A stretch of 43,632 nt of DNA, taken from the IMG/VR virus record IMGVR_UViG_3300017963_000392, positions 1 through 43,632 of that record. One strand, written 5' to 3'. This document shows positions 28,244 through 39,107 of this stretch, piece after piece. This DNA is from a virus. The first letter of the stretch is position 1. The number at the start of each line of letters is the position of its first letter. The notes under the pieces are model-generated. The model was not told the DNA's origin and made no database searches. It saw only the letters and a program-made list of their open reading frames with translations. The translations under genes were made by a program, and so were the position numbers.

Positions 28244-28693
28244 CTAAGCGCTTTTTTGTTCTTTGCTCTGCGCTTTTTTGTTCTGCGCTTTTTTGTTCTG
28301 CGCGATGTTATCGAACACTTTCTTGACTTCGTTTTGAATGCGCTTTGTCAACGCTTTGCTCTGCTTAGCTGTTAACTTATGCTTTGCTCTATATGCGCTT
28401 CGCGTTTTGTTGCGTGCTTCGTGCTCTTCAAGCGCACATTCGAGCGTAATGCTGCTATCGCTTAACATGACAAGCGCGTTTCGTTTGATCATGTGACGCA
28501 CATGTGATTTAACGCGCGTTTCTGACACTTCGCACAAGTCAACAATTTGTTGTATCGTGCAAATATCAGCGAGACAGTTGTCAATCATATCTGCTTGACA
28601 TGCAATGCGATGTTTTTGCGCATTGACACTGCTTCGAAAGCTATGCTCGCGTGATTGCTGTGTTAGTTCTCTAATGCTTGTAAGTTTTTTCAT
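28244..28693 (-). CDS. Leftward winged-helix DNA-binding regulator
   Basis: The 149-residue product starts at the ATG at 28691-28693 (MKKLTSIREL). Residues about 40-95 contain DICTIQQIVDLCEVSETRV followed by SHVRHMIKR. This aligns with residues 125-165 of the protein at 32847 (SIAEIMSNLELSKARV, SHYRHLIRE), so both carry the same winged helix. The C-terminus is Lys-rich with a short duplicated AQNKK repeat mirrored by tandem TGCGCTTTTTTGTTC in the DNA. The gene is isolated, opposite to its neighbours and flanked by operators, which fits an autoregulated repressor. Its base use (GCGC, AAGCG) differs from the rest of the window. Confidence 0.7.
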   Translation of the reverse strand: MKKLTSIRELTQQSREHSFRSSVNAQKHRIACQADMIDNCLADICTIQQIVDLCEVSETRVKSHVRHMIKRNALVMLSDSSITLECALEEHEARNKTRSAYRAKHKLTAKQSKALTKRIQNEVKKVFDNIAQNKKAQNKKAQSKEQKSA

Positions 28694-28754
28694 GATACTT
28701 TCACTTTCTCGCGCATAATTGCGCGTAATTGAAGTCAATACAAGTGAAAGTATC
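28694..28754. promoter_or_regulatory. 13-base inverted repeat upstream of the regulator gene
   Basis: GATACTTTCACTT (28694-28706) is inverted perfectly at 28742-28754 and abuts the start codon. A minus-strand TTGACT (28738-28733) lies between the arms. It is a candidate operator for autoregulation or a large hairpin leader. Confidence 0.6.
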
Positions 28755-29348: not shown

Positions 29349-29934
29349 CCCGTACCACGGGGCCGGAGGGCCGACCGGTTATTAACCGGATTGACTACCC
29401 TACATAGAACCGGTTTTAAACCGGATGTGTCAACCGGTTTCTATCCGGGCGCCCGTACCACTGGTAGGGTTCTCACCCATGGCTAATGCCCTACATAGAA
29501 CCGGTTCTAAACCGGTTCTTAACTCCCTACATAGAACCGGTTTTAAACCGGAGTGTGTATATTCGGGTGGGTGTGGCGAACCGGTTATTAACCGGAGATA
29601 TTTCCAATGCTCATCCCAATGGATAACCGATTGCATTCCGCAGACCCTAATACAATCCGGTTACTTTATCGGTTTAACCCGACATTTGCCCGTACCACGG
29701 GCCTAACTAATACACAGACATGCCCTACACGTTTCCGATCGATTCTCCGCGGTATTAGCGCGTGTCCTTGAGGTATCCTAATAGTAACAGAGATCGTATT
29801 TTCCCCTCCTACAAGAGACAGAGTGCTCCGTGCCTCGTTTTAACGTCCGGTCTGTACACGGGACTGCCCTGGATAAAACCGGTTATTAACCGGGGTGCCT
29901 TCCTTCAAGTGGGCCGGTGAACCGGTTATTAATG
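29349..29934. repeat. Array of CCGGTT-N3-AACCGG palindromes and CCCGT-N3-ACGGG hairpins
   Basis: Perfect 15-base palindromes lie at 29375-29389, 29410-29424, 29501-29515, 29537-29551, 29581-29595 and 29879-29893. The centres are T-flanked ATT, TTT-type or CTA. Degenerate copies lie near 29434, 29657 and 29922. Three copies share the leader CCCTACATAGAA. CCCGTACCACGGG stands at 29349-29361 and 29689-29701, with a decayed copy at 29452. No gene is credible here. Confidence 0.75.
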
Positions 29935-29940
29935 TGTCTG

Positions 29941-31997: not shown

Positions 31998-32079
31998 GAT
32001 TTAATGTCATTTAGGCGGCATCAGCAGAGGTGTTGGTGTCGCCTTGGAGGCATTAAGTCTCAGAAAGGAGGTGAGAAAT

Positions 32080-32190
32080 ATGGCCAAGCGGAAAAGGGAG
32101 TGGAAGACACGCGGCGAAAAAGTCCGGTTCACACGTCGGAAACTCCGGATCAAGGAAAAGGAAACGAAGCGGCAGCTGGAGGCTGCGTAG
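32080..32190 (+). CDS. Tiny very basic protein
   Basis: After AAAGGAGGTGAGAAAT the ATG at 32080 encodes 36 residues, MAKRKREWKTRGEKVRFTRR and then LRIKEKETKRQLEAA. Half the residues are Lys, Arg or Glu. It is probably a helix that binds nucleic acid or a host protein. Its ribosome-binding site is the same as that of larger neighbours, which supports expression. Confidence 0.6.
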   Translation: MAKRKREWKTRGEKVRFTRRKLRIKEKETKRQLEAA

Positions 32191-32225: not shown

Positions 32226-32756
32226 ATGGAACTGGAATTTTACATGGCTCAGGACGAACGGTTAGGATTCCCGTCTGGCTATCACATCGGATTTGCGAGT
32301 TCAATACCGGTTCGCCCGTCGGATCGGACGATTTTAGATCTGGTGCGAAGCGTCGATGAATCGGATATATCCCGATGGCTCAAGATGACGGGACGTAACT
32401 ACGATCCGCGTGAAGTGATCATTCACAGGGCGGACATCGGTGATGTTCTCGTGCTGGACGGCGTGGCACACAAGATCGTCAAAGGGCCGGCGCTAGAACC
32501 GATCGAGGTGAAAATCGACTTCACGGCACCTTGCGTGGCGTGGGATCTCAACATCTGCAAGAGGTTCTGCGTGAAACAGGGTTTCATGACGATGAAGGAT
32601 TCTATGCGGGTCCTGGACGGTGAGCAGTTCAATCTGCTGCTCTATCACATGATGGATGATTTCGAAGTGGACGTGTTGAACGAAATCGGACCCGACTTGG
32701 AGGCACACGAGTATCCGGTTCACAATCTCTACGTGATTCGGAAAAGTAAGCGGTAG
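32226..32756 (+). CDS. Early hypothetical protein
   Basis: The 176-residue product follows GGAAAGGAAAAGAAC. It is mixed alpha/beta: MELEFYMAQDERLGFPSGYH, VIIHRADIGDVLVLDGVAHK, then IDFTAPCVAWDLNICKRFCV and a final acidic part. The VLVLDGVAHKIV stretch suggests a small beta-barrel. No known domain is clear. It is the last gene before the first paired-hairpin leader. Confidence 0.65.
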   Translation: MELEFYMAQDERLGFPSGYHIGFASSIPVRPSDRTILDLVRSVDESDISRWLKMTGRNYDPREVIIHRADIGDVLVLDGVAHKIVKGPALEPIEVKIDFTAPCVAWDLNICKRFCVKQGFMTMKDSMRVLDGEQFNLLLYHMMDDFEVDVLNEIGPDLEAHEYPVHNLYVIRKSKR

Positions 32757-32846
32757 GACATGCTGCTCAGAAGGCATCGGCGAGGGTCGGTGCCTTCGAA
32801 GGAGGATGTCCCTCCAAACAACCCTATTTACCTAAGGAGGTAAGAA
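32757..32846 (+). promoter_or_regulatory. Paired-hairpin intercistronic leader 1
   Basis: GAAGGCA (32770-32776) pairs with TGCCTTC (32791-32797), and GGAGG (32801-32805) with CCTCC (32811-32815). They lead into AAGGAGGTAAGAAATG. Such leaders recur six more times, each with different but self-complementary stems. Confidence 0.65.
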
Positions 32847-33419
32847 ATGGCGAAGAAAGGCAAAAACACCGGCAAGGGCAAGGGCAAGGTCGAGAAGACC
32901 GAAGCGAAAAAGGCTGTCCCCGAGAAAATTTCCGACGAGAAAAAAGGGGATGCCGACAGCACCCCGAAGTTCGATCCGGCAACGGCAACCTGCGATGTGT
33001 TCGGAACCTTTGATCCGACGAGCAAATTCTGCACGGAATGCTCGTCGGAGGAAGCCGAGATGCACGCCGCGTGCAAGGCTGCGACGGCCGCTGCGAAGGC
33101 GATTGCCCCGAAACCGAAGGGCAAGAAAGGCCCCGCGAAGGGAACCGGCGGGAAAAATCTGAGTGTCTACGGTCACAGGCCCAACACTCAGGCGGCTGCG
33201 CTGGATGATGCGTTTCGGGCTGGCATGAGCATCGCAGAAATCATGTCGAATCTGGAACTGTCGAAGGCTCGGGTCACTTCTCACTACAGGCACTTGATCC
33301 GGGAACAGGGTTTGATCGAGCACCGCGGCCCGAACGGCAGGATTCAAATCTTGCGTGAGGGTGAAGAACCGACGGTCAGCAAGCCCGAGGACGACAAGAA
33401 AGACAAGAAGGCGGCGTAG
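32847..33419 (+). CDS. DNA-binding protein: Lys/Ala linker, Cys-rich box, winged helix
   Basis: The 190-residue protein has a Lys-rich N-terminus, a possible zinc box around residues 50-80 (ATCDVFGTF, FCTECSSEEAEMHAAC) and a winged helix around residues 120-165 (AFRAGMSIAEIMSNLELSKA, SHYRHLIREQGLIE). It ends acidic and Lys-rich. The winged helix matches the leftward regulator at 28244, so one may be an activator or antagonist of the other. It is strongly translated by signature site AAGGAGGTAAGAAATG. Role in gene control is inference. Confidence 0.7.
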   Translation: MAKKGKNTGKGKGKVEKTEAKKAVPEKISDEKKGDADSTPKFDPATATCDVFGTFDPTSKFCTECSSEEAEMHAACKAATAAAKAIAPKPKGKKGPAKGTGGKNLSVYGHRPNTQAAALDDAFRAGMSIAEIMSNLELSKARVTSHYRHLIREQGLIEHRGPNGRIQILREGEEPTVSKPEDDKKDKKAA

Positions 33420-33511
33420 TGTAATCTGCCTAGGTGGCACTGGCTCAGGTCGGTGCCACCGTGGGAGTTTGCACTCCACTGGGTAAACACTTTAACTTAA
33501 GGAGGTAAGAA
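33420..33511 (+). promoter_or_regulatory. Paired-hairpin intercistronic leader 2
   Basis: CCTA then GGTGGCAC (33433-33440) pairs with GTGCCACC (33453-33460) followed by GTGGG. GGAGT (33464-33468) pairs with ACTCC (33473-33477). CC and GG outside the main stem can pair around a small UA/GU internal loop. Confidence 0.65.
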
Positions 33512-34228
33512 ATGGGCAAGGAAAAATTGATCGACAAGATCAAGAAACTGATGGCTCTCGGTGAAAGTCCCAATCCCCACGAGGCGGAGCTTGCGATGGA
33601 AAAGGCAGCGAAACTGATGGCGGCGCACAACATCTCAGTAATCGATGTCGAGGCGTCGGACGGGACGATTGAGGAGCACATTCACGAAGTCAACGTGGAC
33701 GGTGCCGGTGGATCCGTAGATCGGTGGGAAGGAACAATGGCCCTGATGCTGTGCGAAATATTCGACTGCGAAGCGGTCGGGCACAAATATCCCAAGTGGC
33801 AGAAGGACGAATTCGGCAAAAAGGATGCGATCTCGTTCATCGGGCATGATGACGATTTGGCCTTAGTGGTTCACTTCTTCATCTACTTGCGGCGCTGGAT
33901 TGGCCGCAAGGCGGAAGTCAACTACCGGCTGAAACGTGACCAGGAAGCGTATGCTCTCGGCTGCATCGACACGATCAAAAACAGGATGAAGGCGGTGTAC
34001 GTCAAGATGCAGGAATACATTCCGGCAGACACGATGGCGCTGATGGTAGTCAAGAAAGGTGCTGTCAGTACTAAAGCCAAGGAGCTGTACCCAAATGCTC
34101 GGGTCAGCAAGTATCGCTCAAAAGGTTCTTACCAGGCCCGCGCGCACGGCGAGCACGACGGCAACAAGGCCCGGATCAGCAGGCCCGTCGCAGGTGGAAA
34201 CGGCGACGCGATCAGACAGATTGCGTAG
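33512..34228 (+). CDS. DUF2786-domain protein
   Basis: The 238-residue product begins with a DUF2786 domain: LIDKIKKLMALGESPNPHEA, AMEKAAKLMAAHNISVID. It continues with a second domain that has WEGTMALMLCEIFDCEA, the phrase ISFIGHDDDLALVVHFFIYL and RDQEAYALGCIDTIKNRM, as in phage DUF2786/DUF7168 proteins. The C-terminal part is basic and Gly-rich. Members are common among phages and mobile elements; the function is unknown to me. Confidence 0.82.
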   Translation: MGKEKLIDKIKKLMALGESPNPHEAELAMEKAAKLMAAHNISVIDVEASDGTIEEHIHEVNVDGAGGSVDRWEGTMALMLCEIFDCEAVGHKYPKWQKDEFGKKDAISFIGHDDDLALVVHFFIYLRRWIGRKAEVNYRLKRDQEAYALGCIDTIKNRMKAVYVKMQEYIPADTMALMVVKKGAVSTKAKELYPNARVSKYRSKGSYQARAHGEHDGNKARISRPVAGGNGDAIRQIA

Positions 34229-34322
34229 GTAACATCTCCTAGGTGGCAGGACCTTTTCTCGGGGTCCTGCCACACGGTGGGTGTTGCGTACTGGACGTGA
34301 CACAAAACAAAGGAGGTAAGAA
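34229..34322 (+). promoter_or_regulatory. Paired-hairpin intercistronic leader 3
   Basis: GTGGCAGGACC (34243-34253) pairs with GGTCCTGCCAC (34263-34273), 11 perfect base pairs, preceded by CCTAG. The second hairpin is weak or missing in this copy. The leader ends AAAGGAGGTAAGAAATG. Confidence 0.6.
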
Positions 34323-34508
34323 ATGGCAGAAAAAGGGTTGGTCTGGGTGGCGAAGTGCCAGACGTGCGGGAAAGAACTGGAACGATGCCCGAACGGCATA
34401 TTCGCGGAAGGTGCGGCGAAACTGCACGTTCGGGAAAACACAGATCACACCGTTCTGGTTGGCTTCGTAATCGACATCGAGGACATCGAAAGGAGGAATG
34501 ATGGCTAA
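34323..34508 (+). CDS. Small zinc-finger-like protein
   Basis: The 61-residue product MAEKGLVWVAKCQTCGKELE continues to CPNGIFAEGAAKLHVRENTD and HTVLV. A CxxC pair near residue 12 and His-x6-His near 36-43 could make a zinc finger. Such compact fingers are common in phage host-takeover proteins. It overlaps the next start by 8 bases. Confidence 0.65.
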   Translation: MAEKGLVWVAKCQTCGKELERCPNGIFAEGAAKLHVRENTDHTVLVGFVIDIEDIERRNDG

Positions 34509-34776
34509 GGAATGGGCAATTATGTTCATAGTGACCGGCCGGACGCATTTTCCTGTGGATATGCTTCGGTACGATTCATGCTGGCCGCGATCATCTGAAG
34601 CGGCCACGGAGATTTCGTTTTCCCTATCGGATGACGGGTGCAGGACGTTCCACAAGATAGAACTCACGCACATCGGACATGGAATTGAGGGCAAGATGTG
34701 GCGCCCGACCTACAAGAGGTGGGAGTCTTTCGGCTGGAAAGTCGAGAAGGTCGGAAGCAGCTTTGAAGTAGGGTAG
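34501..34776 (+). CDS. Early hypothetical protein
   Basis: Two ATG codons stand in tandem; the second (34501) has better spacing from AAAGGAGGA. The 91-residue product starts MAKEWAIMFIVTGRTHFPVD and has LSDDGCRTFHKIELTHIGHG and WESFGWKVEKVGSSFE. It is beta-rich and aromatic. The end GWKVEKV is weakly like the G-W-KVF family. No further assignment. Confidence 0.6.
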   Translation: MAKEWAIMFIVTGRTHFPVDMLRYDSCWPRSSEAATEISFSLSDDGCRTFHKIELTHIGHGIEGKMWRPTYKRWESFGWKVEKVGSSFEVG

Positions 34777-34858
34777 GTCTACTGAGAGGGCATGAGCTTC
34801 GGTTTGTGCCCTCGTGGGAGGGTTACCCTCCGCAACGCTATACCAAAGGAGGTAAGAA
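34777..34858 (+). promoter_or_regulatory. Paired-hairpin intercistronic leader 4
   Basis: GAGGGCA (34786-34792) pairs with TGCCCTC (34807-34813), and GGAGGG (34817-34822) with CCCTCC (34826-34831) around TTA. Bases 34813-34861 are identical to 37040-37088. Confidence 0.7.
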
Positions 34859-35773
34859 ATGGTGGAGAATGAAGTTTTCATGGACTGGGAGAAGCAGCAG
34901 GACGTGATCGCAGCGGTTCGTGAGAAATTCCCGGAAATACCGTTTCCGAATGTATCTCTGGAGCCGGTATTCTTCGGCCGCGGGCCGCGCAAGGTATTAT
35001 GGGAGGACACGAGTATCGTTACCATGGCGCATCACGAAGAGGACGGTGACGTTCTCACTCCGGTGGCTCACGTATCGAGTCAGTACCTGCTGGTGCCGCA
35101 CGAGGTGGTTATTCAACACATCATGGACACGATAGAGTCGATGGACAATCGGTTCGGTGACCCGCTGTATACCATCTCACTGCCGGCGAACGGTGCGAAG
35201 CTGAACTTTCGGGTGAGATTCCCAGAATCTGGATTCAAGGTCAAAGGCACGAAAACTGGCATCGAAAAAGACGTGCAGCCGGAAGTACGTGCCCGCAGTT
35301 CCTATGACAAGGGCTGGGAGTACGGCTCGGAGTTCGGTGCCCACGAACTGGTCTGCTCGAACGGACTGATCGCTTTCAAGATCATGGAGGGAAGGTCGAA
35401 AAAACATCGGCTGAACCTCTCGGTCGAAGAAGAGGCCGCTTACATCACACAGGGCATGGAGTCCTACGTGGAGCAGAACGCTCAATGGAACAAGTGGGCG
35501 GATGCAATGCTCCCCGGACAGGTGGTTCACGACATGCTCGAGGACGAGAAAATGCCCTTCGGCCCGAAACATCTGTCGGAAATTCTCGCGTTGCCGGAAG
35601 CCGGCACGAGCGAAACCCTGGAGCAGTGGATAAACGAGGGTCAAGTGAATGGCTGGAGGCTGTACGGGGTCTTCACCCAATTTATGACACACGAATTGGA
35701 GTCCGAGTTGGTCCGCGCAAAGAAGGAACCGGCGGTGACGAGGTTCCTGTCGAAGTATCTGGATGCCGCTTAG
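34859..35773 (+). CDS. DUF932 (phage/plasmid-like) protein
   Basis: The 304-residue protein fits the DUF932 family: VAHVSSQYLLVPHEVVIQHI, GAKLNFRVRFPES, RSSYDKGWEYGSEFGAHELV followed by CSNGLIAFK, and a helical second half. Such proteins occur widely in phages and plasmids and are thought to act in DNA-related processes; the mechanism is not known to me. A longer linker than usual lies at the N-terminus (EKQQDVIAAVREKF). The ATG follows the signature site. Confidence 0.75.
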   Translation: MVENEVFMDWEKQQDVIAAVREKFPEIPFPNVSLEPVFFGRGPRKVLWEDTSIVTMAHHEEDGDVLTPVAHVSSQYLLVPHEVVIQHIMDTIESMDNRFGDPLYTISLPANGAKLNFRVRFPESGFKVKGTKTGIEKDVQPEVRARSSYDKGWEYGSEFGAHELVCSNGLIAFKIMEGRSKKHRLNLSVEEEAAYITQGMESYVEQNAQWNKWADAMLPGQVVHDMLEDEKMPFGPKHLSEILALPEAGTSETLEQWINEGQVNGWRLYGVFTQFMTHELESELVRAKKEPAVTRFLSKYLDAA

Positions 35774-35863
35774 GCTGATCCGCTCAGTGGGCATGAGCCG
35801 TTGGGTTTGTGCCCACTCGGAGGCTTAGCCTCAAATAAAAACCCTTAGCAAAGGAGGTAAGAA
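35774..35863 (+). promoter_or_regulatory. Paired-hairpin intercistronic leader 5
   Basis: AGTGGGCA (35786-35793) pairs with TGCCCACT (35810-35817), and GAGGC (35820-35824) with GCCTC (35828-35832) around TTA. It leads to AAAGGAGGTAAGAAATG. Confidence 0.7.
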
Positions 35864-36259
35864 ATGGGAGAAAACGAGAAAATCGGAAAGTGTGGCCTCA
35901 CAGAGGTGTTCCTCGACACATCGACACCGGAGCACTTCGTCAAAATCGAAACAGTCTCCTCCATGTGTAAATTAAATGCCAACCAAGGTCTGCTAACGCT
36001 GAGAATACCAATAACCAATGCCGCTGACATCGGCCAATTGGTTATCCTGGCAGAAAAGAAGTACCGGGAAAAACAGAAAGCAACCCGTTTCGTAAGCAAC
36101 ATAACCCAACTCCGCTACAATATATACAAAGCCATGGATGCCTTTCAAAAATCCAACATTTCCTATGAGGAATTCATTAGAGAGATCGAGGACATTTCCA
36201 TTGACCTTAATCTGGAATTAGCAGCGGTAACGACAGGGGGAGGTGGTTCCATTGAATGA
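35864..36259 (+). CDS. Early hypothetical protein
   Basis: The 131-residue product has a beta half (GLTEVFLDTSTPEHFVKIET, GLLTLRIPITNAADIGQLVI) and a helical half (TQLRYNIYKAMDAFQKSNIS) with a Gly-rich C-terminal end that overlaps the next start. Its base composition is more AT-rich than the preceding genes. The function is unknown. Confidence 0.65.
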   Translation: MGENEKIGKCGLTEVFLDTSTPEHFVKIETVSSMCKLNANQGLLTLRIPITNAADIGQLVILAEKKYREKQKATRFVSNITQLRYNIYKAMDAFQKSNISYEEFIREIEDISIDLNLELAAVTTGGGGSIE

Positions 36260-36530
36260 GAACATGAAGAGACGGTTGGCAATTCTGCTAAACCGGGTCT
36301 GGGACAGCATTGGCGATGACGTTCTTCGGTGCAAAGAAGACGCGGGTGAGGGAAGCACATGCACCCGAGATGAGGTCATGGAAATATGTACCGATGCGCC
36401 GTTCGACATTTATGGCAAAGAACTCGACCCCGGTGCCTTCAAGTTCTTTCGGGATAACATCCGGTATGATTCGCCCGAATACAAAGAACTGATGTTGGAG
36501 GCATTTCCGCAGAAACACCATGGTTGGTAA
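36252..36530 (+). CDS. Early hypothetical protein, probable TTG start
   Basis: GGGGGAGGTGG lies just before codon TTG at 36252 at ideal spacing, overlapping the stop of the previous gene. An ATG at 36264 would be 20 bases from the site. The 92-residue product contains NENMKRRLAILLNRVWDSIG, CTRDEVMEICTDAP and FKFFRDNIRYDSPEYKELML. It is helical and acidic. Function not recognised. Confidence 0.6.
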   Translation: MNENMKRRLAILLNRVWDSIGDDVLRCKEDAGEGSTCTRDEVMEICTDAPFDIYGKELDPGAFKFFRDNIRYDSPEYKELMLEAFPQKHHGW

Positions 36531-36539
36531 GGAGGAAAC

Positions 36540-37007
36540 ATGAACACGTACATCTGCCAATTCTGTGGCGAGAAAATTCAAGCCAAGGCAAAACCGAGTG
36601 GGAATTATGTGGGTTACGGTGATAATCGTGACCACTGGCACACTTGGCGAGAGTACATCCCTAAACGGGATGATATCAGGAGTAGTTATGCCAATCCGAT
36701 ACTATCGGAAACCCGCAGAAAGAACCTCGTAAGGGCCTTCCCTGACATCATTTGGGATTTCGAAGAAGCAACCGTAGAAAACATTGGTTGGGGTGACAGA
36801 CCTGCGTTCGATATACCAGGCACATTCTTCGGCGAAAACCGATACGTTTATGTATGGTACAAACAAGGCAACCCAAGTGGCGGAAACCCCTCACTTACTG
36901 TATTCGACCCGCAAACAGGAGAGGTTTTACTTCGAATAAGCAAAGCACCCTTAAGAGATTCCGTTCTCTGGACACGAGAAATTCGGAGGGTGTGTAACAA
37001 AGGGTAA
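36540..37007 (+). CDS. Zinc-ribbon-containing hypothetical protein
   Basis: The ATG follows AAGGAGGAAAC. The 155-residue product has an N-terminal CQFCGEKIQAKAKPSGNYVG and DHWHTWREYIP that could bind zinc, then a beta-rich middle (GENRYVYVWYKQGNPSGGNP) and a basic C-terminus. It is not recognised. The Trp-, Arg- and Gly-rich composition suggests a compact fold. Confidence 0.6.
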   Translation: MNTYICQFCGEKIQAKAKPSGNYVGYGDNRDHWHTWREYIPKRDDIRSSYANPILSETRRKNLVRAFPDIIWDFEEATVENIGWGDRPAFDIPGTFFGENRYVYVWYKQGNPSGGNPSLTVFDPQTGEVLLRISKAPLRDSVLWTREIRRVCNKG

Positions 37008-37085
37008 CATTGCCTAGGTAGCACGAGAGATCGTGCTACCGTGGGAGGGTTACCCTCCGCAACGCTATACCAAAGGAGGTAAGAA
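37008..37085 (+). promoter_or_regulatory. Paired-hairpin intercistronic leader 6
   Basis: CCTA then GGTAGCACGA (37017-37026) pairs with TCGTGCTACC (37031-37040) around GAGA, a tetraloop of GNRA type. GGAGGG (37044-37049) pairs with CCCTCC (37053-37058). The second half is identical to leader 4. Confidence 0.7.
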
Positions 37086-37670
37086 ATGTTGAACAACCTG
37101 TCGATGAAAAGTTCATTGGAAGATGTCCTCGGACTTATGTCGGAGAACGGACACCACTGTCGAGAAGAAGGCATCGCCGCCTTCATCGCATCCATTGTGG
37201 GACTCACCGCAGCCGGTATCGACCGGAGCAATGCGATCAATGCCATACTCAAGAGAGTTCCCACGGACTTTCGGATTCAATGCATACCGGCAAATATTTC
37301 CCACGCCGATATCAAGGATCTGAATTGGCACAGCAGGATCGCGGCCAGTCTTCCCTCTTTCAAAACCATTTGGGAAGGCATCAAGGAAGAAGACCGTCCC
37401 GAGAAAGAGGATCTGATCGACAAGTACCTCTGGATTGCAGGTCAATTCCACCAAGCGTTCAAAACGGCTGATGAAACAGGCTCAAGATATGAGTGCTGGT
37501 TGCCCGACACGTGGCGTATTGCGGGATCGCAATACATTCTGGAATTCTCAATCGTTGACAAAGGCAAGGAATACAAGGACACAGTGAACTGGCACGGGCA
37601 GAACACGAGTCAATGGGTGTTCGCGGGCTGTATCCTGGTACAGGACAAACGTGTGTCAATCCACACATAG
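37086..37670 (+). CDS. Early hypothetical protein
   Basis: The 194-residue product starts MLNNLSMKSSLEDVLGLMSE, then GHHCREEGIAAFIASIVGLT. It has a helical middle with TDFRIQCIPANISHADIKDL and a beta C-terminal part with CWLPDTWRIAGSQYILEFSI and VFAGCILVQDKRVSIHT. This is a soluble, two-part protein without known motifs. It is expressed from the signature site AAGGAGGTAAGAAATG. Confidence 0.65.
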   Translation: MLNNLSMKSSLEDVLGLMSENGHHCREEGIAAFIASIVGLTAAGIDRSNAINAILKRVPTDFRIQCIPANISHADIKDLNWHSRIAASLPSFKTIWEGIKEEDRPEKEDLIDKYLWIAGQFHQAFKTADETGSRYECWLPDTWRIAGSQYILEFSIVDKGKEYKDTVNWHGQNTSQWVFAGCILVQDKRVSIHT

Positions 37671-37680
37671 GAGGTGCAAT

Positions 37681-37836
37681 ATGTCCGAAGAAAAAGAAAC
37701 TTTGATCTGGATATGTCGGTGCGGCCATGAAGTGGTATCAGAAGAGAGGCCCCGTCCAATCAAATGGACAGACGGCCACACTTGTGTATTCCCCGCAGTG
37801 GGGATAAAATACGAGGATTGGGAACGAAAGGATTAA
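37681..37836 (+). CDS. Small Cys/His protein
   Basis: GGAGGTGCAAT precedes the ATG. The 51-residue product has ICRCGHEVVSE and WTDGHTCVFPAV, a C-x-C-x-H plus H-x-C pattern that may hold zinc. Acidic ends. It closes this mini-module before leader 7. Function unknown. Confidence 0.6.
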   Translation: MSEEKETLIWICRCGHEVVSEERPRPIKWTDGHTCVFPAVGIKYEDWERKD

Positions 37837-37918
37837 TCCCTAGGTGGCAGGACGAGAAAATGTCCTGCCACACGGGGAGGGATTCTCTCTCCACAATACA
37901 ACACAAAGGAGGTAAGAA
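37837..37918 (+). promoter_or_regulatory. Paired-hairpin intercistronic leader 7
   Basis: CCCTAG then GTGGCAGGAC (37844-37853) pairs with GTCCTGCCAC (37862-37871). A weak second hairpin uses GGAG and CTCC. It ends AAAGGAGGTAAGAAATG. The first stem is like leader 3. Confidence 0.6.
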
Positions 37919-38901: not shown

Positions 38902-39000
38902 GGGAGGGATGAAAGTCCCTCCCTGGCCTACTATTGGAACCTGCCCACCCCTACCCTTACCTCCTACCTATCTGCCCGGATAGGTCTTGGGGGTGGGCAG
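38902..39000 (+). promoter_or_regulatory. Hairpin-rich gap with exposed anti-ribosome-binding-site sequence
   Basis: GGGAGGG (38902-38908) pairs with CCCTCCC (38917-38923). Then CTGCCCACCCC (38941-38951) pairs with GGGGTGGGCAG (38990-39000), and inside it ACCTATC (38966-38972) with GATAGGT (38979-38985). CTTACCTCCT (38956-38965), the complement of AGGAGGTAAG, is left unpaired. No T run follows. No gene fits on either strand here. Confidence 0.6.
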
Positions 39001-39039
39001 ATTCGAGTGGTAGGGCATTCCTTTAACCTGGCCGCTCGA

Positions 39040-39087
39040 CCGGTTATTAACAGGAGGCGGGTCGGTTTGTACCGCCTCCAACCAATC
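39040..39087. repeat. Stray CCGGTTATTAACagG copy and GAGGCGG hairpin
   Basis: CCGGTTATTAACAGG (39040-39054) is a one-base variant of the 15-base palindrome arrayed at 29.3-29.9 kb. Overlapping sequence GGAGGCGG pairs with CCGCCTCC about 12 bases later. It lies just before the arginase-like gene. Confidence 0.55.
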
Positions 39088-39107
39088 ACCTACGAAAGGG
39101 GGTAAGA

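Follow-up and report, generated by a model that had tools for sequence, protein, structure and literature searches.

What do the gaps between the plus-strand genes of the uncultured virus record IMGVR_UViG_3300017963_000392 do? All 43,632 bases of this record, called the window in the following, were analysed. Its minus strand has the genes for tail, capsid, portal and terminase, and its plus strand has small genes; a sequence-only reading had described seven gaps of the latter as sharing one layout. The described parts were present at their places, but the copies number eight, since a further one (LA, 32000-32057) lies ahead of a 36-codon open reading frame (ORF) at 32080. The leaders were folded with the ribosome-binding site excluded, the folded piece reaching from the stop codon of the preceding gene almost to the Shine-Dalgarno sequence. 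Every window copy (8/8) then gave a single long hairpin with interruptions and 22-31 pairs, which begins at the upstream stop codon and ends about 6-24 nucleotides (nt) 5' of a AAAGGAGGT site. All hairpin leaders sit between co-directional genes and span the region from stop codon to linker. We infer that the leader-bearing plus-strand block is an early-type polycistronic region.

The copies follow a common register, consisting of a lower stem of 6 pairs, a 1x1 mismatch, 2 pairs, a second 1x1 mismatch, 2 pairs, a 2x2 internal loop, an upper stem of 10-13 pairs and the apical loop. The mismatch register is fixed, and the internal loop has a conserved A followed by a G at its top. Slight deviations are seen in L3 and L7, both having a 3x2 inner loop; L3 is one base short at a mismatch and the lower part of L7 is shorter. 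In the sequence-only reading each gap held two independent hairpins. Its hairpin 1 corresponds to the upper stem of the long hairpin, and the independent hairpins are replaced by a single one with an alternative refold. The four CCTAG motifs reported ahead of hairpin 1 were confirmed (L2, L3, L6 and L7); they belong to the 5' arm of the long hairpin. The eight copies and the support for each are as follows:

32000..32057, plus strand: LA, eighth copy of the long interrupted hairpin; lower stem TTTAAT/ATTAAG (fold and register)
32756..32811, plus strand: L1, long interrupted hairpin; lower stem GGACAT/ATGTCC, upper stem GAAGGCATCGGC/GTCGGTGCCTTC (fold, covariation)
33419..33474, plus strand: L2, long interrupted hairpin 5' of the DUF2786 gene; lower stem GTGTAA/TTGCAC (fold, covariation)
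34229..34287, plus strand: L3, long interrupted hairpin; lower stem GTAACA/TGTTGC (fold, held-out model match with E 0.015)
34772..34827, plus strand: L4, long interrupted hairpin 5' of the DUF932-like gene; lower stem GGTAG/TTACC, taking in the upstream stop codon (fold, covariation)
35773..35830, plus strand: L5, long interrupted hairpin; lower stem GGCTGA/TTAGCC (fold, covariation)
37003..37054, plus strand: L6, long interrupted hairpin; lower stem GGTAAC/GTTACC (fold, covariation)
37830..37885, plus strand: L7, most divergent copy of the long interrupted hairpin; lower stem GGATT/GATTC (fold)

The ORF 3' of LA (32080-32190) has a very high content of Arg and Lys (MAKRKREWKTRGEKVRFTRRKLRIKEKETKRQLEAA), and its product could be an RNA-binding peptide. 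A larger composite leader is found 5' of gene 39108 (38920-39107), where a long branched hairpin is followed by GGAGGCGG...CCGCCTCC and AAAGGGGGTAAGAATG; it may be a relative of the hairpin element.

Several lines of evidence support selection on RNA structure in the leaders. Dinucleotide shuffles of the eight gaps reached the observed pair number in 0, 1, 7, 0, 4, 1, 1 and 1 of 300 cases each, and at least 22 pairs were obtained for 13 of 800 random 80-nt windows versus all eight leaders. Over 19 leaders from two phages the mean folding z-score was -5.1. In the alignment of six window copies 98.5% of the cells were paired and 11 pairs showed double-sided changes; the covariation value was 0.748 versus 0.307 after shuffling (0/500) and did not exceed 0.18 on sliding. 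The lower stems were paired at 46 of 48 positions within their own copy versus about 2.9 of 6 across copies. MAFFT alignments, both of full leaders and of window plus G004, were out of structural register and were not used for covariation. Moreover, stem positions comprised 142 Watson-Crick and 27 G-U pairs and no A-C, to which the internal-loop positions add just one C-A. As G-U and A-C are equivalent on DNA, where they read as G-T and A-C, this bias, together with the better folding of the sense strand, indicates that the constraint acts on RNA. The sense strand was the better folder in 17 of the 19 leaders (mean -33.6 versus -27.0 kcal/mol), and the covariance model scored its own copies with 59-70 bits on the sense versus at most 35 bits on the antisense strand. 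The window copies are few and probably paralogous, so that these statistics count sequences rather than independent events; the agreement of two further phages weighs more than the window statistics.

Annotated phages gave no DNA match to the window, and DNA plus protein searches of them returned only distant DUF2786 proteins as relatives. Likewise, single-protein scans of viral contigs yielded no relatives and a scan of genome contigs with the DUF932-like pair no match, whereas pattern scans and two-sequence alignment scans did yield relatives. A pattern scan found G001 (IMGVR_UViG_3300009320_000008, 80 kb, uncultured), whose proteins are 53% (terminase), 57% (portal), 57% (capsid), 34% (helicase) and 33% (DUF932-like) identical to those of the window. 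Its gene block contains about 11 leaders arranged in the same way, with a stop codon, an interrupted hairpin, a short A/C-rich linker and AGGAGGTAAGANATG; two of them, before genes 6055 and 8566 of L035-reversed, are less regular. The pair counter assigned 4-5 pairs to two G001 leaders because a branched apical loop halted its outward walk. A second scan found G004 (IMGVR_UViG_3300013099_000029, 47.7 kb, uncultured) with at least 7 such leaders, among which h4738 and h5556 show the register 6-1x1-2-1x1-2-1x1-12, nearly that of the window itself.

In both relatives the stem letters differ from those of the window and the pairing is kept. With G004 added, the own-copy pairing of the lower stems was reached by 0 of 20,000 permutations; the G004 leader h3080 is paired at 5 of 6 positions in this comparison. 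Asymmetric internal loops were found at 0 of 29 positions in the window and at 2 of 28 and 1 of 23 in the two relatives, versus 49% in shuffled hairpins. Relatives of the window genes 33512, 34859 and 37086 are present in both phages, gene starts in the relatives having been called in this analysis. In G004 hairpin leaders precede all three; in G001 they precede the relatives of 33512 and 34859, and the gap before that of 37086 is too short for the test. A covariance model, as proposed in the sequence-only reading and built here from six copies with shortened calibration of its E-values, recovered the held-out L3 (E 0.015) and exactly L035:11478-11555 in G001, the leader of the DUF932-like orthologue (E 0.027, roughly calibrated), but missed L7 and G004. 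The selection on RNA structure postulated in that reading is supported for the sense strand, inside this genome as well as by the two relatives.

Further scans gave contigs of other kinds. Matches L056-L058 of the helicase scan were rejected as relatives, being too distant and without such leaders. The portal-pair scan returned three short contigs (L051, L052 and L053, binned as Desantisbacteria, Flavobacteriaceae and Mollicutes) with the same portal and terminase types and 46-57% portal identity; these are probably phage contigs binned by chance and hence no indication of the host. In the viral contigs L060, L077, L078 and L087 the same 20-pair interrupted hairpin lies 32 nt upstream of a start with CAAAGGAGGTAAGANATG; their proteins showed no relation to those of the three phages.

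The 3' arm of the lower stem can also pair in a second way. It then forms hairpin 2, which excludes the lower stem of the long hairpin and forms in all eight window copies as well as in G004, its letters varying (GGAGG/CCTCC, GGAGT/ACTCC, GGAGGG/CCCTCC, GAGGC/GCCTC and GGAGCA/TGCTCC):

32047..32061, plus strand: hairpin 2 of LA (weak), GAGGC-ATTAA-GTCTC
32801..32815, plus strand: hairpin 2 of L1, GGAGG-ATGTC-CCTCC, excluding the lower stem
33464..33477, plus strand: hairpin 2 of L2, GGAGT-TTGC-ACTCC
34281..34303, plus strand: hairpin 2 of L3, GTGTTGCGT-ACTGG-ACGTGACAC
34817..34831, plus strand: hairpin 2 of L4, GGAGGG-TTA-CCCTCC
35820..35832, plus strand: hairpin 2 of L5, GAGGC-TTA-GCCTC
37044..37058, plus strand: hairpin 2 of L6, GGAGGG-TTA-CCCTCC
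37874..37892, plus strand: hairpin 2 of L7

L6 equals L4 letter for letter from hairpin 2 across the linker up to the start of the gene, and this identity points to a recent shared origin of the two 3' halves. The linkers between hairpin and gene are mostly unstructured and are followed by the Shine-Dalgarno sequence. Of the single extended ribosome-binding site assumed in the sequence-only reading, the exact form AAAGGAGGTAAGAAATG holds for five of the seven copies, and the other two have TAAGGAGGTAAGAAATG instead. The five are the only occurrences of AAAGGAGGTAAGAAATG in the whole record:

32833..32849, plus strand: extended Shine-Dalgarno sequence and start, TAAGGAGGTAAGAAATG (by sequence; same kind at 33498-33514)
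34309..34325, plus strand: extended Shine-Dalgarno sequence and start, AAAGGAGGTAAGAAATG (by sequence; identical at 34845, 35850, 37072 and 37905)

Among the functions suggested in the sequence-only reading, which were RNA processing, translational switching and binding of a phage protein, processing is best supported by anatomy and position. We estimate the chance that the gaps are intercistronic elements cut by host RNase III at slightly better than even; this reading is favoured because anatomy and position match the sites R0.3 and R1 of phage T7, the cleavage itself being inferred from this likeness. The T7 record carries no marks for these sites. Folded with the same code, R0.3 and R1 show a 9-pair upper stem, a tetraloop and a 2x3 internal loop, below which short pairs and a 1x1 loop lead to the foot; R1 starts 1 nt past the stop codon of gene 0.7 and leaves 22 nt to the start of gene 1. 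T7 sites and window leaders have in common an irregular hairpin between early genes with a 9-13-pair upper stem, a small apical loop, an internal loop and short pairs. In contrast to T7, the window hairpins are longer and more regular, an extended Shine-Dalgarno sequence follows every copy, hairpin 2 exists as an alternative, and no sequence relation is seen. With regard to what defines RNase III sites, an intramolecular duplex of about two helical turns is present in 8/8 copies (22-31 pairs), and the position is intercistronic.

According to this proposal, each gap would fold on the polycistronic RNA as the long hairpin of about 26 layers, starting from the upstream stop codon. The double-strand-specific RNase III of the host would then cut at or near the internal loop, as in T7, and by the same analogy on its 3' side. 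The GC-rich upper stem (hairpin 1) would stay on the upstream message as a protective 3' hairpin, and the freed 3' arm would form hairpin 2, which would then stand at the newly made 5' end of the message downstream, so that with a cut at this side both folds would make sense. Behind hairpin 2, the unstructured linker and a near-perfect anti-16S site may hold ribosomes and shield the message from 5' exonuclease.

Several observations weigh against RNase III processing. The RNase III of the host is an assumption, and neither phage record (window, G001) matches the RNase III family tested. The T7 R0.7 region folded into no such hairpin and R0.5 and R1.1 gave mainly the upper stem; the likeness therefore holds for some T7 sites, not for all. 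The internal loops of the window are symmetric, whereas that of R1.1, a standard RNase III substrate (PMC6121014), is asymmetric (4/5). Finally, hairpin 2 has moderate statistical support: own versus swapped linkers gave 30/2000 for the window and 209/20,000 for window plus G004, the shuffled-linker fractions amount to 0.07-0.30 per copy, and it is missing from most G001 leaders.

A comparable arrangement is described for phage SP82, whose early mRNA is cut by Bacillus subtilis RNase III, to go by the title of a paper cited in PMC12502629. Mutations of the ribosome-binding site shorten the half-life of SP82 mRNA, as cited in PMC7509114, and for SP82 and other Bacillus messages a strong Shine-Dalgarno sequence is reported to protect the 5' end (PMC7509114, PMC3997798). 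The substrate preferences of the B. subtilis enzyme resemble those of the Escherichia coli enzyme (PMC11780869). SP82 thus offers, in a Gram-positive host, an RNase III-cut early mRNA whose downstream piece is stabilised by a strong ribosome-binding site (polypurine 5' stabilizer); the likeness is one by cited description, not base by base.

The layout also resembles that of cluster K mycobacteriophages, where an imperfect inverted repeat precedes a conserved start-associated sequence (SAS; with the repeat, ESAS) ahead of many non-structural genes (PMC3203893). In TM4, 2 of 7 SAS/ESAS sites fold as a hairpin of 17-22 pairs. The ESAS repeats (17-bp inverted repeat) keep a consensus sequence, whereas the window copies keep only the pairing, and the SAS consensus GGGATAGGAGCCC (at most 2 mismatches, before a start) had 0 matches in the window, G001 and G004. 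With the consensus absent and stem letters varying between copies, identity with SAS/ESAS was ruled out. None of the 4227 covariance models of Rfam matched the window at E up to 1.

Could the two folds serve as a bistable switch coupled to upstream translation, in which the terminating ribosome melts the lower stem, hairpin 2 forms and downstream initiation or stability is changed? In window and G001 leaders the 5' arm indeed starts at most a few bases away from the stop codon, hairpin 2 occurs with differing letters in 10/10 compared copies (window plus G004), and constrained folding gave two exclusive folds of near-equal energy in L6, h3080, h4267, h4738 and h5556. The two-state picture is plausible in itself. 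However, openness of the Shine-Dalgarno sequence did not differ systematically between fold I and fold II (mean about 0.46 versus 0.40) and most G001 leaders lack hairpin 2, and we regard such a switch as unlikely. On the same grounds, a translational switch through the CCTCC arm, as suggested in the sequence-only reading, is not supported.

A passive role is likewise unlikely in our view. Stable hairpins could stop 3' exonucleases and isolate ribosome-binding sites without any cleavage, and the high stability, the position from stop codon to linker and the mostly unstructured linkers agree with this; yet a perfect short stem would suffice for it, and neither the symmetric interruptions in fixed register nor the length of two turns would be needed. 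We consider it quite unlikely that processing and translation are joined in an iterated ribosome-sensing switch, where the terminating ribosome would open the lower stem and the 3' arm would form hairpin 2, deciding whether the message is cut or stays whole. The conserved A and G atop the internal loop and the fixed mismatch register might also suit an RNA-binding protein of phage or host that recognises shape and acts in repression, activation or antitermination. We deem this improbable, as beyond the A/G around the internal loop no loop or stem motif common to the three phages was seen and no candidate protein emerged.

Inverted repeats acting at the DNA level, as operator sites or recombination points such as have been suggested for some phage repeats, would account for the recurring intergenic position and the identical 3' halves of L4 and L6, but are very improbable in view of the 27 G-U against 0 A-C pairs, the better folding of the sense strand and the lack of any repeat sequence conserved between phages. 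Intrinsic terminators or attenuators are just as hard to credit despite GC-rich hairpins between genes, since no T run stands at the hairpin foot, as the sequence-only reading had correctly noted, downstream genes would be cut off, and T-tailed terminator matches on the plus strand numbered 8 in all versus 10.2 expected from shuffled sequence, with one weak match inside L5 and no ordinary one coinciding with a full hairpin.

Two other parts of the window attracted attention. On the minus strand, a 164-codon ORF (28244-28738) lies in a stretch (about 27.9-29.3 kb) that visibly stands out by its composition, and is possibly a late arrival. The mostly gene-poor region 29373-29936 contains a cluster of AACCGGTTNTWAACCGG-like palindromes, with one more at 39038 (17 matches at up to 3 mismatches versus 0.7 expected), possibly operators or a replication origin.

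If RNase III processing holds true, a single RNA module, fixed in shape and largely free in its letters, would be used again and again by this uncultured phage group to build an entire gene block. T7-style RNase III processing would then extend to phages of an unrelated lineage and include a bistable feature of testable role, and about 26 naturally occurring versions of a single processing hairpin would be at hand for learning what RNase III sites require. Should the ribosome-sensing switch apply, processing of each message would depend on translation of the preceding gene. Elements of this kind slip past sequence-based and Rfam searches.

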